The notes beneath the pieces were generated by a model that was given only the letters and a program-made list of their open reading frames with translations, did not search any database and was not told where the DNA came from. This document shows, piece by piece, positions 14,450-39,341 of a stretch of DNA of 45,803 bases. This DNA comes from Candidatus Pacearchaeota archaeon (GTDB taxonomy: Archaea; Nanobdellota; Nanobdellia; Pacearchaeales; UBA284). Location of the stretch: NCBI GenBank assembly GCA_026395795.1, contig JAPLYB010000043.1:1-45803 (forward strand). Direction: 5' to 3'. Position 1 is the stretch's first letter. The number at the start of each line of letters is the position of its first letter. The position numbers and the translations under genes were made by a program.

Positions 14450-14736
14450 TGTCCTCTTTTTCTATTTAATCAACAACTTTAGTATTTAAAAATGTTTTGC
14501 AATTTTCCTTACATAGAGTAGCAACTTTTTTAAACCTTCAAACACTCGCATTATCGAAGTAGTTGGTCAGTCAACTGTCTGATTTGCTCCCTAAAGGACA
14601 AGAACTAAGCATAAACATGCAATGAGTTCTTGAAAATCAGAGGAAGGTCCACTCACCAATTAAATAAAAAGCTGGTTGATGCAAATCAACTTTTCGCGAG
14701 AGAAAGCTCCGTAACAGAAACGACACAGCTTCCATC
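14450..14736. other. Intergenic region with promoter and a nested inverted repeat
   Basis: On the minus strand a TATA box (CATTTTTAAATACT, 14481-14494) and AGAGGA serve the metalloprotease gene. At 14579-14640 two nested inverted pairs (CTGATTT/AAATCAG and CAAGAACT/AGTTCTTG) could form one long stem in RNA or DNA. GTTGAT-GCAA-ATCAAC follows near 14674-14689. No tRNA or known RNA family is recognised. Confidence 0.45.
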
Positions 14737-15016
14737 GCACTAAAAAGTCCTCTGGATTTTTGGTGCGCCGGGAATTTTTATTTCCGTGCGATGTATGACG
14801 CATGCGCTGACAATTGAAATGGAAGACATGATGAAACGCTAAATTCATCGCTATGAATTTGGCGTGCCGAAAACGCGAAGCGTTTTCGAGCATGCTGAAG
14901 TTCACCGCAGTGAACGAGGAATGCGAATTTCATTCGCATTGGCGCCTCAGCTGGTGCAAGTTCAAAACGAACGCTCAGTCGGATGTTGACATGCCCACTT
15001 CACTTCGTGATGGGCA
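14737..15016 (-). repeat. Array of short hairpin units (copy B)
   Basis: At least seven perfect or near-perfect hairpins lie in 280 bp that is richer in GC than its surroundings: for example AAATTCAT-CGCT-ATGAATTT (14841-14860), CGAAAACGC-GAA-GCGTTTTCG (14868-14888), GTTCAC-CGCA-GTGAAC (14900-14915), AATGCGAA-TTTCA-TTCGCATT (14920-14940). The units differ in sequence but keep linkers such as GGCGTGCC and GAGCATGC. Read on the minus strand the array holds an open frame with SMLENASRFRHAK, resembling the leader peptides of copies A and E. It sits between two minus-strand surface genes, 26 bp after the stop of the upstream one. Confidence 0.75.
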
Positions 15017-15042
15017 ACAGAAAGTGGCCTATGCCAACTACT

Positions 15043-29887: not shown

Positions 29888-29909
29888 AACCATGGTTCTT
29901 ATAGTTAAA

Positions 29910-31028
29910 ATGGATAAAAGAGTACGATTTTCTGAAGGAAATCAAAAAAAGTTACTTAAATATTTAAAGAAAAAAACGGGATTTGGCTGGAAAGAAATCT
30001 CTAAAAAATTAGAAGTTAACGAAAAAACCCTGGTTAAATCTTATATGTACGAATACTGTGATATTCCTTATAATCTTTTCAAAAAAATTTGTATGATCTT
30101 ATGTGAAAAAGAAGACAACGTTTTGAAAGAATACGGTGGCATTCTAAAAAAAGAAGAATTAATTATCGGAAGAAAAGTTTTTGGTGAGCAAAGAAAAATC
30201 TTAAATTTAATAAATGTAACTTACCCCAATAAAAATTTAAATTTAGATATATCAAACATAAGTTACAGTGGTTCTGATATAAAGAAAAAAGTTAAATTCC
30301 CTACAAGAATCACTAAAGAATTAGCTGAAGAAGTCGGAATGCACTTTGGAGATGGTTTTCTTTCAGCAAGAAAATATGATTACAGATTGAAAGGAAATCC
30401 AAAAAATGAAAGAGAGTATTATTTTAATGTTATAAAACCCTTATTTAAGGGGTTGTATAATATTGACGTCAACTTGAAAGAATTTAAGAGAAGTTTTGGT
30501 TTTGAAATTTACTCAAAAGCTTTGTGGAAATTTAAAGTTAAAACTTTAGGGATAAAACCTGGCAAGAAAGATAGTATAAGATTCCCAGAAATTCTTAAGG
30601 TAAATGATATAAAGATTCTTGGTGCATTTTTGAGAGGTTTGTTTGACACCGATGGTTGTGTTTCATTCAAATCAAAATATAGTTATAAAAATTATTATCC
30701 AACAATTGATCTTGCACTCACCTCAAAAGACTTGATAAAAGATGTTGCTGAGATACTATTTATGTTTGGATTTAATCCCGGTGTTTATTTCAATGAAAAA
30801 TACGGAAGAATATCTATTCGTGGAATTAATGCATTCAAAAGATACGAAAAATTTATAGGATGGAGCAGTCCTAAAAATTTAAATAAAGTAGATGAATGGA
30901 AAAAAAGATATCCAGAGCTAAATAAAAATGGCGAATGTAGCTCAATGGTTAGAGCGTCTGGCTGTGGCCCGGGAGACGGGGGTCCGATTCCCCCCTTTCG
31001 CCCTATAGAAGCAAAAGAGGTAAAATAA
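29910..31028 (+). CDS. LAGLIDADG homing endonuclease reading through tRNA-His
   Basis: 372 aa from ATG 29910. The N-terminal part (about 1-80) resembles a helix-turn-helix (FGWKEISKKLEVNEKTLVKSY). Two LAGLIDADG helices follow: ELAEEVGMHFGDG (about 137-149) and ILGAFLRGLFDTDG (about 236-249), each ending in the catalytic acidic residue, so it is a two-motif, single-chain enzyme. After YPELNKNGE (about residue 341) the frame is simply the translation of the tRNA-His gene and ends at 31028, just before hisS. No stop exists before the tRNA. Either the protein really carries this tail or translation is limited by tRNA processing of the transcript. It appears free-standing, not inside an intron or intein. 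Confidence 0.82.
   Translation: MDKRVRFSEGNQKKLLKYLKKKTGFGWKEISKKLEVNEKTLVKSYMYEYCDIPYNLFKKICMILCEKEDNVLKEYGGILKKEELIIGRKVFGEQRKILNLINVTYPNKNLNLDISNISYSGSDIKKKVKFPTRITKELAEEVGMHFGDGFLSARKYDYRLKGNPKNEREYYFNVIKPLFKGLYNIDVNLKEFKRSFGFEIYSKALWKFKVKTLGIKPGKKDSIRFPEILKVNDIKILGAFLRGLFDTDGCVSFKSKYSYKNYYPTIDLALTSKDLIKDVAEILFMFGFNPGVYFNEKYGRISIRGINAFKRYEKFIGWSSPKNLNKVDEWKKRYPELNKNGECSSMVRASGCGPGDGGPIPPFRPIEAKEVK
30930..31002 (+). tRNA. tRNA-His (GTG)
   Basis: The cloverleaf can be drawn by hand: G-1 opposite C73 (the histidine identity pair), acceptor GCGAATG/CTTTCGC, D-arm GCTC-AATGGTTA-GAGC, anticodon arm TCTGG-CTGTGGC-CCGGG with anticodon GTG, T-arm GGGGG-TCCGATT-CCCCC. CCA is not encoded (CTA follows C73). 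Oddities are a T-T mismatch at 6-67 and C instead of T at position 55. No intron. The gene lies 27 nt before hisS, whose product charges it, and is overlapped in the same sense by the endonuclease frame. Confidence 0.92.
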
Positions 31029-32199: not shown

Positions 32200-32763
32200 A
32201 TGACCAAATTTTTTATAATTCATGGGGCGTATGGCAATCCAGAAGAAAATTGGTTTCCTTGGCTAAAAGAAGAGTTAGAAAAGCAGGGCGATATTGTTTT
32301 TGTTCCTAAATTTCCAACTCCCGAAAATCAAAGTCTTGAAAATTGGATGAAAGTTCTAAAAGATTATGAAAAGTTTATCGATGAAAACACCATTTTTGTT
32401 GGACACAGCATAGGTGTTGCATTTATTTTGAACATTTTAGAGAAATCAAACAAGAAGGTTAAAGCGTGCTTCTTTATTTCTGGATTTTTAAGTTTATTAG
32501 GAAACTCTGTTTTTGATAAAATAAATAAGACATTTATTGACAAAGGGTTTAATTGGAAAAAGATAAAAAACAACTGCAATAAGTTTTACATTTTTCATTC
32601 AGACAACGACCCCTATGTGCCTTTGAAAAAAGCTGAGAATCTTACTAATAAACTTGGAACAAAAGTAATTATTGTCAAAAATGCAGGACATTTTAATGAA
32701 GCTGCAGGATATAAAAAATTTGATTTACTTCTTGATTATATTAAAAAAGAAACAAATTTATAA
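32200..32763 (+). CDS. RBBP9/YdeN-like alpha/beta serine hydrolase
   Basis: 187 aa, the family length. FFIIHGAYGNPEENWFPWL opens the fold with the oxyanion loop, VGHSIGVAF holds the nucleophile Ser (G-H-S-x-G), HSDNDPYVP the acid and NAGHFN the catalytic His, so the triad is complete. Substrate unknown; such proteins are small intracellular esterases. It starts 3 nt after hisS ends, so it is in the same operon. Its stop codon lies within the TATA box (TTTATAAA, 32757-32764) of the following unit. Confidence 0.82.
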   Translation: MTKFFIIHGAYGNPEENWFPWLKEELEKQGDIVFVPKFPTPENQSLENWMKVLKDYEKFIDENTIFVGHSIGVAFILNILEKSNKKVKACFFISGFLSLLGNSVFDKINKTFIDKGFNWKKIKNNCNKFYIFHSDNDPYVPLKKAENLTNKLGTKVIIVKNAGHFNEAAGYKKFDLLLDYIKKETNL

Positions 32764-32764
32764 A
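32757..32764 (+). promoter_or_regulatory. TATA box over the hydrolase stop codon
   Basis: TTTATAAA is centred 25 nt before the ATG at 32786 that opens the hairpin-element leader frame, and 131 nt before the phosphohexomutase ATG. Confidence 0.55.
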
Positions 32765-32784: not shown

Positions 32785-32896
32785 CATGGCAAAAACAGAT
32801 AGTTTTTGGCACCCTAAAAAATCAGAAGATTTTTGGGGCACAGAAAATCCGCAAATTTTCAAGTGTGCCAAAAACCCGGAGGTTTTTTAGCATGGC
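32785..32896 (+). repeat. Four-unit hairpin element (copy C) at a start codon
   Basis: Four stems start at 32791, 32817, 32843 and 32870 (26-27 bp apart): AAAAAC/GTTTTT, AAAAATC/GATTTTT, GAAAAT/ATTTTC and AAAAACC/GGTTTTT. Linkers are GGCACCC, GGGGCACA and AAGTGTGCC. CATGGC occurs on both edges (32785-32790 and 32891-32896), like a target-site duplication that includes the start codon of the downstream gene. Sequence differs between units while pairing is kept. Confidence 0.8.
32786..32890 (+). CDS. Possible leader peptide (34 aa) encoded by hairpin element C
   Basis: ATG 32786 lies 25 nt after a TATA box and opens 34 codons, one K-x-x-x-F-like motif per hairpin (KTDSFWHPK, KSEDFWGTE, NPQIFKCAK, NPEVF). 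Its TAG ends one base before the ATG of the phosphohexomutase. It could be translated as a leader and couple to the gene, or simply be what the inserted element looks like in this frame. No function is claimed. Confidence 0.4.
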   Translation: MAKTDSFWHPKKSEDFWGTENPQIFKCAKNPEVF

Positions 32897-34256
32897 GCTT
32901 GTTGAATCATTTTCAGGCACGAGAGGAATTTATGGAACAGAGCTGACAGAAGAAGATATAAGAAAATATGCTCTTGTCTATCTAGAGTTTCTAAAAAAAA
33001 GAAGTCCAGATAAAAGTGAAAATAAAATAACAGTTGTAATAGGAAGAGACACGAGGCCTTCAGGAAAAGCGATTTTGAACACTTTTCTCAGATACTTAGA
33101 TTGCAATATTATAGAATTAGACATACTTCCAACACCAATTATCGAAAACGCTGTTCGAGAATTTCAAGCAGATGGCGGGATAATAATTTCTGGCTCGCAC
33201 AATGAACCAGAGTACAATGGGATTAAATTGCTTGACAAAGATGGCGCAATTCTTCGTCCGAAAGATATTGATTTTGTAATCAAGAGAGTTCATGAGGGTA
33301 ATTTTGAAAATAATGAAAACAGGAAAGAGAAGGGCATTATTAATAAAAAAAGAGAAGCAATACAATCATACAAAAAACTTTTGAAAGAGATTCTAAAAAC
33401 GAATAATATCAACAGTTCAAAAATTCTTGTTGATCCAGATGGCGGAGCAGGCATTTCAAGCAAGGACATATTTGATGAATTTGGAATAAATGCTAGTTAC
33501 ATAAACATAAAACCAATGGAATTCAATAGACTTATCGAACCCAATGAGTCTTCCTTAAAATATCTTGAAAAAGAAATAAAGAAACAAGGTTGTGATTTTG
33601 CAATAGGTTTTGATTGTGATGCAGACCGAGTTGAAGTTCTGTTAAATGATGGAACTCTTGTATCTGGAAATCATATTCTTGCATTGATTGTTGAAGAGAT
33701 TATATCAAATTCAAAAGAGAAAACAGTTATTGTAAACGATGCAACAAGTTATGTTGTAAAAGAGGTTACAGAAAGAAACCAAGGCACATTTAAAGAAGTG
33801 GAAGTAGGAGAAATAAATGTTGTTGATGAAATGTTAAATTCAAATTCTCTTATTTCCGGAGAGGGGTCAAATGGCGGAGTTATTATCTTTCCAACAAGAT
33901 GCAGAGATGGAATCCTAACAATATTGTTTTTATTGAAAATAATTTCTGAAAAAAACAAATCATTAAAAGAACTTATCAAAGGACTGCCAGAATATTATTA
34001 TATAAAAGAGAAAGTGAAGATAAAAGAAGATTTTTTAAAAACGAGAAATAAGATTAAATCTTACTACAAAAACAAAGATTTTAAGATTCAAGAAACAGGA
34101 GATGAAACAGGCGGATTGAAAGCATTAAAGGAGAATTCATGGGTTTGGTTCAGACAATCTAAAACAGAAGATAAAATACTGAGGGTTATAATTGATTCTA
34201 AAGATAAAGATACTGCTGAAGAACTCTTAAAAGAAGCAAAAAAGTTAGTAGAATAA
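32892..34256 (+). CDS. Phosphomannomutase / phosphoglucosamine mutase family
   Basis: 454 aa, full length. The four family loops are present: IISGSHNEPEYNG with the phosphorylated Ser, FDCDADRVEV as the magnesium loop (D-x-D-x-D-R), GEGSNGGVIF as sugar-binding loop and FRQSKTEDKILRV as phosphate-binding loop. It isomerises hexose-1-P/6-P, feeding sugar nucleotides for surface glycans, which fits the glycoprotein locus. ATG 32892 is preferred over GTG 32865, whose extension is hairpin-element sequence. The last hairpin overlaps this start codon. Confidence 0.87.
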   Translation: MALVESFSGTRGIYGTELTEEDIRKYALVYLEFLKKRSPDKSENKITVVIGRDTRPSGKAILNTFLRYLDCNIIELDILPTPIIENAVREFQADGGIIISGSHNEPEYNGIKLLDKDGAILRPKDIDFVIKRVHEGNFENNENRKEKGIINKKREAIQSYKKLLKEILKTNNINSSKILVDPDGGAGISSKDIFDEFGINASYINIKPMEFNRLIEPNESSLKYLEKEIKKQGCDFAIGFDCDADRVEVLLNDGTLVSGNHILALIVEEIISNSKEKTVIVNDATSYVVKEVTERNQGTFKEVEVGEINVVDEMLNSNSLISGEGSNGGVIIFPTRCRDGILTILFLLKIISEKNKSLKELIKGLPEYYYIKEKVKIKEDFLKTRNKIKSYYKNKDFKIQETGDETGGLKALKENSWVWFRQSKTEDKILRVIIDSKDKDTAEELLKEAKKLVE

Positions 34257-34405: not shown

Positions 34406-34846
34406 TTATCTTAGTTTTGCCAAAACAACAAGCGATGTGACTATTCCTATCAACGGCCCCATTACAAAACCATGCGGAGTGAACAGCAACGCTAAAACAC
34501 TGAACGCCAAAACAAAGACGCTTGCTTGTCTAAGGTCTATTCTCATGAAAGCAGAAGAAATTAACATCGCCAATCCTATGACCATATCAAGAACACCAAG
34601 CAAACTCACAAAGCTAGATGTGGGAAGTGCTGAAAAACCTCCAACTTGTTCTGGGAATATTACAAACAAGATAGATGCAATCAAAACAATCACACTAGCA
34701 ACGATGTTCAATGTGTAAGCTGTTGGGTAAAAACTGTCTACCACTCTTTTTTCTGGATTCTTTATTGAAGACATTGGCTTCACTACACTCTCTCTGTCTA
34801 CTCTAGATTTAGATTTAGCATTAAACCTCTTTTTCTTTTTTGCCAT
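34406..34846 (-). CDS. Unknown four-helix membrane protein
   Basis: 146 aa. A basic N-terminal tail (MAKKKKRFNAKSKSR, about residues 1-40) is followed by about four hydrophobic helices (about 46-64, 75-97, 101-119, 124-143) with short loops. No family recognised. Its ATG is preceded, after 2 nt, by the stop codon of a 35-codon frame inside hairpin element E; the only TATA box at a sensible distance lies upstream of that frame, so the mRNA probably begins there. Confidence 0.65.
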   Translation of the reverse strand: MAKKKKRFNAKSKSRVDRESVVKPMSSIKNPEKRVVDSFYPTAYTLNIVASVIVLIASILFVIFPEQVGGFSALPTSSFVSLLGVLDMVIGLAMLISSAFMRIDLRQASVFVLAFSVLALLFTPHGFVMGPLIGIVTSLVVLAKLR

Positions 34847-34847
34847 G

Positions 34848-34956
34848 TTTAAAAATTTCCTATTTTTGACAAAGAAAATCCATAAGGGTTTTCTGTGTCC
34901 AGAAATGTTTCTACATTTCTGAGCATGCTAGGAAATACAATTTCGTTTTCTAGCAT
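34848..34956 (-). repeat. Four-unit hairpin element (copy E)
   Basis: Plus-strand stems start at 34851 (AAAAAT/ATTTTT), 34874 (GAAAATCC/GGGTTTTC), 34901 (AGAAATG/CATTTCT) and 34928 (CTAGGAAA/TTTTCTAG), 23-27 bp apart. Linkers GTGTCC and GAGCATGC match copy B (GTGCC, GAGCATGC). It fills the whole space between a TATA-positioned ATG (34956) and the real start of the membrane-protein gene (34846). Confidence 0.7.
34849..34956 (-). CDS. Possible leader peptide (35 aa) encoded by hairpin element E
   Basis: ATG 34956 is about 24 nt from a TATA box (TTTTTAAA on the minus strand, 34977-34984). The frame begins MLENEIVFPSMLRNVETF, has a Phe at positions 8, 18, 27 and 35, and stops 2 nt before the next ATG. 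Similar starts are read in copies A (MFEKRKVF) and B (MLENASRF). Leader translation is inferred from promoter geometry only. Confidence 0.35.
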   Translation of the reverse strand: MLENEIVFPSMLRNVETFLDTENPYGFSLSKIGNF

Positions 34957-36528: not shown

Positions 36529-36630
36529 TTAAAACTCCTGTTTTTATAACACTAAAAAATCCTTTGGATTTTTGGTGTGCGGGAAATCTTTTCCCTGCAT
36601 GCCGAAAAACTTTTCGTTTTTCAAACATGC
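36529..36630 (-). repeat. Four-unit hairpin element (copy A)
   Basis: Plus-strand stems start at 36531 (AAAAC/GTTTT), 36555 (AAAAATCC/GGATTTTT), 36581 (GGGAAA/TTTCCC) and 36604 (GAAAAAC/GTTTTTC), 23-26 bp apart. Linkers are GGTGTGC, TGCATGCC and AAACATGC. It occupies the space between ATG 36628, placed 23 nt from a TATA box, and the probable native ATG 36526, and is in frame with the gene. One hairpin also contains GGAG, which could serve as ribosome-binding site for ATG 36526. Confidence 0.75.
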
Positions 36631-38855: not shown

Positions 38856-39341
38856 ATGACAAAAACAGAACAAGTAAAGATGGGGAAATCTGTGATCGCT
38901 TCTGGTCCGATAATCATTCAAAATAAAAAGATGTTGGTTGTTCTAGATGACAAAGATCCTTTTCTAAAATTTCCAGGAGGTTCTTTATTCAAAGGCAAGA
39001 CGCTAAAAGAAACATGCATTCTTGAAACAAAACTGGAAATTAAGTGTGACATCGGAATAATTAAAGAACTCGAGCCAATGTTGCTTTGGAAATGCTTGAA
39101 AATCAAAGATTTTCGGCACCCCAAAAATGCGAAACATTTTTTAGGGAAGCCGCACACAGGAGAAAAAATTCCAGTTATTTTGATTCATTGGCTCGCAAAA
39201 ATAAAAAAAGGCCAGAAACCGAGCAAAGGAAAACACACAAAGAAGATAATCTGGATTGATTCTCACTATAAAGGATACAAACTTGCGCCAAATGTTCAGT
39301 ATTTCTTGAAGAAACTGAAGAAAGAAAAGAAAACTAATTAA
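38856..39341 (+). CDS. Degenerate Nudix-like protein carrying an in-frame hairpin insertion
   Basis: 161 aa. FPGGSLFKGKTLKETCILETKLEI aligns with a Nudix box but lacks the R-E-x-x-E-E core (L-E-T-K-L-E here), so catalysis is doubtful. Residues about 80-98 (KIKDFRHPKNAKHFLGK) come from a 57-bp element; without it the text would read LLWKPHTGEKIPVILIHW, a smooth Nudix-like join. A long basic tail ends the protein. GGGAG about 11 nt upstream of ATG 38856, and 17-nt spacing to the phosphoesterase gene, suggest an operon. Possibly a decaying or repurposed Nudix domain. Confidence 0.6.
   Translation: MTKTEQVKMGKSVIASGPIIIQNKKMLVVLDDKDPFLKFPGGSLFKGKTLKETCILETKLEIKCDIGIIKELEPMLLWKCLKIKDFRHPKNAKHFLGKPHTGEKIPVILIHWLAKIKKGQKPSKGKHTKKIIWIDSHYKGYKLAPNVQYFLKKLKKEKKTN
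39088..39148 (+). repeat. Two-unit hairpin element (copy D) inserted in frame in a gene
   Basis: Stems GAAAATC/GATTTTC (39098-39114) and AAAAATG/CATTTTT (39123-39141) are joined by GGCACCCC. GGAA stands on both sides (39088-39091 and 39145-39148), so the inserted length is 57 bp, exactly 19 codons. The frame gives KIKDFRHPKNAKHF, the same pattern as the other copies. Confidence 0.75.

Follow-up and report, generated by a model that had tools for sequence, protein, structure and literature searches.

The window, by which we mean the whole stretch of 45,803 nt that was analysed, belongs to the genome of a Candidatus Pacearchaeota archaeon (G000; other G numbers denote the relatives that were compared). 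At positions 32785-32896 it carries an array of four hairpins, which is one copy of a dispersed, multi-copy palindromic repeat family, located between a hydrolase gene and a phosphohexomutase gene. The features of the locus are as follows.

32757-32764, + strand: TATA octamer TTTATAAA, perfect score, 29 nt 5' of the leader ATG
32785-32790, + strand: first CATGGC, which is an outer joint of the array and the inferred position of the ancestral start codon (from the TATA at -29 and the G072 homolog)
32786-32890, + strand: leader ORF of 34 codons, MAKTDSFWHPKKSEDFWGTENPQIFKCAKNPEVF, with its ATG in the first joint (translated from the sequence)
32790-32808, + strand: hairpin 1 (CAAAAAC/GTTTTTG)
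32817-32834, + strand: hairpin 2 (AAAAATC/GATTTTT)
32843-32860, + strand: hairpin 3 (GAAAAT/ATTTTC), flanked by the joints GGCACA and GTGTGCC
32870-32887, + strand: terminal hairpin (AAAAACC-cgga-GGTTTTT), with a Shine-Dalgarno (SD) motif in its loop and 3' arm
32878-32882, + strand: predicted SD motif GGAGG, 9 nt 5' of the phosphohexomutase ATG
32891-32896, + strand: second CATGGC, which is also an outer joint of the array and contains the start codon now in use
32892-34256, + strand: phosphohexomutase (PGM/PMM) gene, Pfam PF02878, PF02879 and PF02880

This layout agrees with an earlier note on the same DNA, which had reported CATGGC on both sides of the element with an ATG in each copy, a TATA box about 25 nt from the first ATG, and a 34-codon leader stopping one base before the gene. 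The octamer starts 29 nt from the leader ATG at 32786, its centre lies at about -25, and it overlaps the stop codon of the hydrolase gene upstream. The leader stop codon, TAG at 32888-32890, is one base 5' of the ATG at 32892. The assignment of this second ATG as the start of the phosphohexomutase was borne out by the Pfam matches and by the N-terminus, MALVESFSG, which aligns with MALVETFSG in G072 and with MALIESLSG in a genome named as Candidatus Woesearchaeota, whose homolog is 49% identical. The RNA of the element was predicted to fold at -32.7 kcal/mol, compared to -22.1 ± 3.1 for shuffled sequences (z -3.4; 0 of 200 equally stable), and an Rfam search matched the element to no curated family. 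The CATGGC repeat alone is weak evidence, because 16 of 219 called genes (7%) have a further copy of their start hexamer 30-175 nt upstream, and because CATG lies inside a joint of the family.

We estimated the extent of the family by searching G000 with the DNA of the element, which gave 57 matches. At least 70 arrays were found in the 211 kb of G000 that were inspected. These 211 kb were the stretches around matches, so the 70 arrays are a biased sample and no census; arrays were gathered by similarity to the 32785 copy and by exact matches to an end pattern, and all counts describe that sample. Each array consists of two to five short, AT-rich hairpins with GC-rich joints of about 6-8 nt between them. 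Examples of arms are AAAAATC/GATTTTT, AGGAAAT/ATTTCCT and CGAAAAAG/CTTTTTCG, examples of joints are GGCATGCC, GGCACGCC and GGGACGCC, and the outer flanks are of the ATGCT...AGCAT type. G000 contains 29 instances of the right-end pattern TTTTTNARCATG, compared to one of the reversed control. At 13 of these 29 right ends the ATG opens a real gene, and the genes opened by an array ATG include those for the phosphohexomutase, RFC-small (an identity assigned from sequence) and ribosomal proteins S8, L22 and L21e. A two-hairpin covariance model had at least about 102 matches in G000 (best E 1e-13) and matched 31 of 55 genomes of the order. The family is plentiful in G000, G004, G011 and G017, with zero matches in some genomes of the same taxonomic family. 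Across the order, the array load varied from 0 to at least 100 model matches (G004, L034; G010, L044; G011, L038; G017, L046). A literature search within a limited collection of papers found no account of this family.

A second example lies within the window itself.

34849-34956, - strand: leader ORF MLENEIVFPSMLRNVETFLDTENPYGFSLSKIGNF, followed by its stop, on a hairpin array
34406-34846, - strand: gene of unknown function, 146 aa, which starts at the end of this array; no Pfam match

The stop of this leader is at -5, AGGA lies in the terminal hairpin, and a TATA-like TTTTTAAA is found at -28 of the leader ATG. Chance, that is, a hairpin-rich spacer in which a 6-nt repeat and an open frame happen to coincide, could draw only on the recurrence of start hexamers upstream of 7% of genes, and can be set aside as already refuted by a multi-copy family with a common grammar, the 29 right ends versus one, and sister copies of the same geometry.

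The RNA folds of four homologous copies had z values from -3.4 to -5.4. Hairpin 2 of the RFC-small copy is AGGAAAT/ATTTCCT; when aligned with BLAST/MAFFT, it differs by two compensatory changes of the G-C/A-T type. In the four-copy alignment, arm shifts throw the stems out of register. The RFC-small copy was predicted to fold into three arms, with the gene AUG in their closing stem. The 32785 copy has no such closing stem in its minimum-energy fold, so, going by these models, gating strength may differ between copies.

The history of the sites was assessed via the spacing between TATA octamers and start codons. Perfect octamers before gene ATGs in G000 peak at -29 (13 genes) and -28 (four genes), which, on sequence grounds alone, is the geometry of leaderless genes. 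The earlier note had proposed that the element entered a leaderless gene at its start codon and duplicated the target, and that an empty site should show the TATA box at the same distance from the gene itself. The insertion part of this proposal was supported. The closest homolog of the phosphohexomutase, in G072, is 60-65% identical and lacks an array. Its start region reads TTTATATA, 21 nt, ATGGCGCTCGTA, which places the TATA octamer exactly 29 nt before the gene ATG; in the window, the ATG at this distance is that of the leader. G072 belongs to another family and its gene neighbourhood either differs or is unknown, so this is a comparison of homologous gene starts and not of a proven orthologous site, for which insertion would predict TATA-29-ATGGCGCTTGTT 3' of the hydrolase gene. 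No relatives with the HisRS-hydrolase-PMM neighbourhood were found among 200 genomes of the order, and PMM was present in only three of 200 at E <= 1e-30.

The gene for RFC-small offers what is, as far as sequence comparison can tell, a stronger test of insertion than the phosphohexomutase and G072. In seven relatives (G005, G006, G007, G008, G010, G013 and G017), a perfect octamer, TTTATAAA or TTTATAAG, is located exactly at -29 of the gene ATG and there are zero arrays. In G000, the same spacing leads from the octamer to the leader ATG, and the array lies between the octamer and the gene. The gene for S8 had a different starting point. Relatives such as G001 and G008 read AAGGAG..ATGGTAGTA, while G000 reads AAGGAG..ATGGTA, then a two-hairpin array, then ATGGTAGTA, with ATGGTA (6 nt including the ATG) doubled at leader and gene. 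Judged by these relatives, S8 was probably SD-led before the array arrived. Insertion is not confined to leaderless genes, as the S8 array struck an SD-led start. Arrays at L21e were found only in G000 and G011, the site being empty in 18 relatives. Start-codon arrays at L21e and RFC-small thus occur in two families (L173 and L160 in G011; L236 and L082 in G000), by shared ancestry, transfer or repeated targeting.

Arguments on the transition from leaderless to SD-led initiation, and on the building of regulatory leaders from repeats, have so far relied mostly on comparisons of distant organisms. In the present case, relatives include both filled and empty sites and the TATA spacing marks where the gene originally began, which allows the switch to be traced gene by gene, including at genes for ribosomal proteins and the replication clamp loader. 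Start-codon predictions in such genomes need care, because two ATGs compete.

We also considered that the arrays are conserved regulatory 5' elements, such as a cloverleaf-like RNA to which a protein or ligand binds, that belong to particular genes without any recent insertion. The presence of arrays at RFC-small and L21e in both G000 and G011, which are from different families, the arrays at Zn-ribbon genes in G000 (L088) and G007 (L218), and the strongly structured folds would all fit. However, the distribution is patchy, with RFC-small and L21e free of arrays in all other relatives examined, and the arrays of G000 and G011 at the same gene have no obvious similarity beyond the grammar. The spacing from TATA to leader equals that from TATA to gene in the empty relatives, as insertion predicts. 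We regard such an element as improbable.

Duplication of the target, the other part of the earlier proposal, could not be upheld at this copy. The tags around each hairpin match in inverted orientation (3.31, compared to 2.71 for the null) rather than directly (2.50 compared to 2.58), which makes GCATG(C) part of the element. CATG is its own reverse complement, and the direct and inverted readings coincide there. As the CATG of both CATGGC copies is a joint of the element, duplication cannot be demonstrated from the 32785 copy alone: at its CATGGC it is not provable, being indistinguishable from a GCATG(C) joint. Classical target duplication for all arrays was rejected (direct repeats 2.76, compared to 2.68 for the null). 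At gene starts, the exact run shared by the leader start and the start of its own gene was 4.96, compared to 3.93 ± 0.25 for permuted pairs (23 leaders; 0 of 5000 permutations, p < 2e-4), with runs of 9-10 nt at L102, L200 and L210. Inferred from such shared runs, duplication at gene starts is likely across the family.

Next, we compared arrays at gene starts with other arrays in G000 and six relatives (30 versus 20 arrays with a terminal hairpin). Gene starts were called by a simple codon model, and some pairs of arrays are homologous, so the counts are partly non-independent. An SD core was present in the terminal hairpin of 26 of the 30 gene-start arrays and two of the 20 others (Fisher p = 6e-8); in G000 alone the numbers were 10 of 13 and one of 13 (p = 0.001). 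The 16S rRNA gene is missing from the assembly, and SD motifs were called without the genome's own anti-SD. A qualifying leader, defined as an ATG ORF of at least 15 codons with a stop no more than 6 nt from the gene ATG, accompanied 23 of the 30 gene-start arrays, three of the 20 others and, after shuffling, a mean of 3.6 (maximum 10 in 200 shuffles). The remaining seven of the 30 had no qualifying ATG leader, so the leader is not universal. Leader stops were positioned at -5 (nine), +1 (six), -4 (four), +4 (three) and +5 (one) relative to the gene ATG. A start signal of its own, either an SD or a TATA at -28/-29, preceded 17 of the 23 leaders, where 5.4 were expected (p = 5e-7); L212 in G011, with GGAGGaaaagaaATG 5' of the leader, is a clear example. 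The genome G011, from another family, has about 17 gene-start arrays with the same pattern. The excess of SD motifs and open leaders at gene starts is thus directly visible in the DNA, as are the family itself and the ancestral initiation signals that now serve leaders. A second group of arrays (d ~38-46; L063, L065 and L067) ends about 40 nt 5' of gene starts, just outside the minimal archaeal promoter.

Part of this pattern is a property of the repeat. In two-hairpin arrays the grammar by itself leaves frames open in about 75% of cases, and stops close to the gene start are partly inherent in TTTTTNAGCATG. The coding bias of leader codons was no higher than that of the next frame (0.033 compared to 0.036), the terminal hairpin is read in any of the three frames depending on the copy, and a Pfam search of the leader peptides returned no match. 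A conserved leader peptide was rejected, given that frames differ among copies and Pfam was empty. With all three frames in use and no coding bias, the peptide is unlikely to matter, and on present indications its sequence probably has no function of its own.

We consider a translation-coupled leader the best explanation of the locus, with a probability of roughly two in three; leader translation and coupling are inferred. A copy of the array would have landed on the start codon of the phosphohexomutase gene, which was then leaderless. With the old promoter unchanged, the mRNA 5' end would be at the ATG in the first joint of the array. A ribosome would start leaderless on that ATG, read through the 34 codons, melt the hairpins and terminate one base short of the gene ATG, at which point it would just have opened the SD. 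The gene would then be started by reinitiation, or by new ribosomes binding the exposed GGAGG; without leader translation, the SD would remain partly paired in the terminal hairpin. By these steps, a leaderless gene would become a structured, SD-dependent, translation-coupled one. Importantly, the lineage is uncultivated and there are no transcript or ribosome data, and the transcription start and the melting of hairpins are likewise inferences. Transcription might instead begin inside the element, from a downstream promoter of the array's own, to which the AT-rich sequence lends itself. Yet the best TATA-like octamer 5' of the gene ATG matches only 6/8 and is at -36, and an mRNA without a leader would have no use for the terminal SD, which makes an internal promoter very improbable.

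The arrays could also be selfish palindromes of a benign kind, comparable to the Rickettsia palindromic elements (RPEs), whose ATG joints and open frames make insertion at a start codon tolerable. Leader translation would then be purposeless and the SD would have been acquired as a rescue. Consistent with this, the majority of arrays lie away from gene starts, two-hairpin arrays have most of their frames open wherever they lie, arrays are also found inside RNase P RNA and in frame inside an ORF, and leader codons have no coding bias. Such a reading does not account for the strong excess, in gene-start arrays over other arrays and shuffles, of leader ORFs that end at the start, nor for leaders retaining a TATA at -29 or their own SD. 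We judge it unlikely, without dismissing it.

The translation-coupled reading can be extended to the family as a whole: in this archaeal order, a mobile structured repeat with start-codon specificity would let the old signal drive the leader, bring or evolve its own SD and AUG, and repeatedly convert unrelated leaderless housekeeping genes into hairpin-gated, translation-coupled genes. This extension is held tentatively, at somewhat less than even odds.

Several known systems share features with the arrays. RPEs are dispersed palindromes with open frames that enter genes non-destructively, also in frame within ORFs (PMC10969869). The arrays are likewise palindromic, dispersed and multi-copy; RNase P RNA also contains an array, and another lies in frame in the ORF at 38856-39341, for which there is no Pfam match to anchor the host protein. 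However, RPEs form families defined by sequence, about 150 bp long and encoding a conserved peptide, whereas the arrays follow a grammar of hairpins and joints with variable arms, use all three frames and sit on start codons with a new SD and ATG. Short intergenic clusters of palindromes with many copies per genome are also typical of REP/BIME and of REPINs, which are mobilised by RAYT/Y1 transposases; we know of no comparable association of these with start codons. A Y1/RAYT transposase as the mover of the arrays was rejected, as its presence across genomes does not track array counts: Y1 transposase genes were absent from G004, G010 and G017 despite 47-91 array matches, and G000 had three matches. 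Similar to MITEs, the arrays are small, non-coding, multi-copy and patchy among relatives, but their outer ends have no terminal inverted repeats (3.17, compared to 3.26 for the null), the inversion being within each hairpin, and arrays in general, as distinct from those at gene starts, gave no signal of a direct flanking repeat.

Two further systems resemble the predicted leader. Translational attenuators such as the erm and mgt leaders have an upstream leader ORF, a structured start region and a stop beside the gene start. Array leaders are also upstream, with the start region in RNA structure and the stop adjoining the gene start, but they have no conserved peptide or stall sequence, and the same cassette is found on unrelated housekeeping genes. 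Some E. coli mRNAs have an AUG at the 5' end followed by the SD-led start of the real gene (PMC4965119). The arrays share an AUG at the mRNA 5' end, here inferred, upstream of an SD-led gene start; they differ in that repeated insertions of a structured repeat have apparently produced the archaeal arrangement, and in that the leader reaches the gene start.

Arrays were also observed in other contexts within the window. The archaeal RNase P RNA gene at 14558-15042 (+ strand, 485 nt, Rfam model 288) contains array sequences at 14733-14798 and 14826-14952. They lie within a peripheral insertion (215 nt, compared to 61 in the model), and the conserved core still matches. A two-hairpin array at 39098-39141 (+ strand) is in frame in the ORF at 38856-39341, where it encodes the segment LKIKDFRHPKNAKHFLG in an RPE-like manner; this ORF has no Pfam match. 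A three-hairpin array at 36555-36622 (- strand) is in frame at the start of a minus-strand gene ending at 36628, to which it would add an N-terminal extension beginning MFEKRKVFRHAGKRFPAHQKSKGFF. Separately from the arrays, a tRNA-His gene at 30931-31003 (+ strand) overlaps the 3' part of an ORF of 379-430 aa (29736 or 29892 to 31028), which lies just 5' of the HisRS gene.
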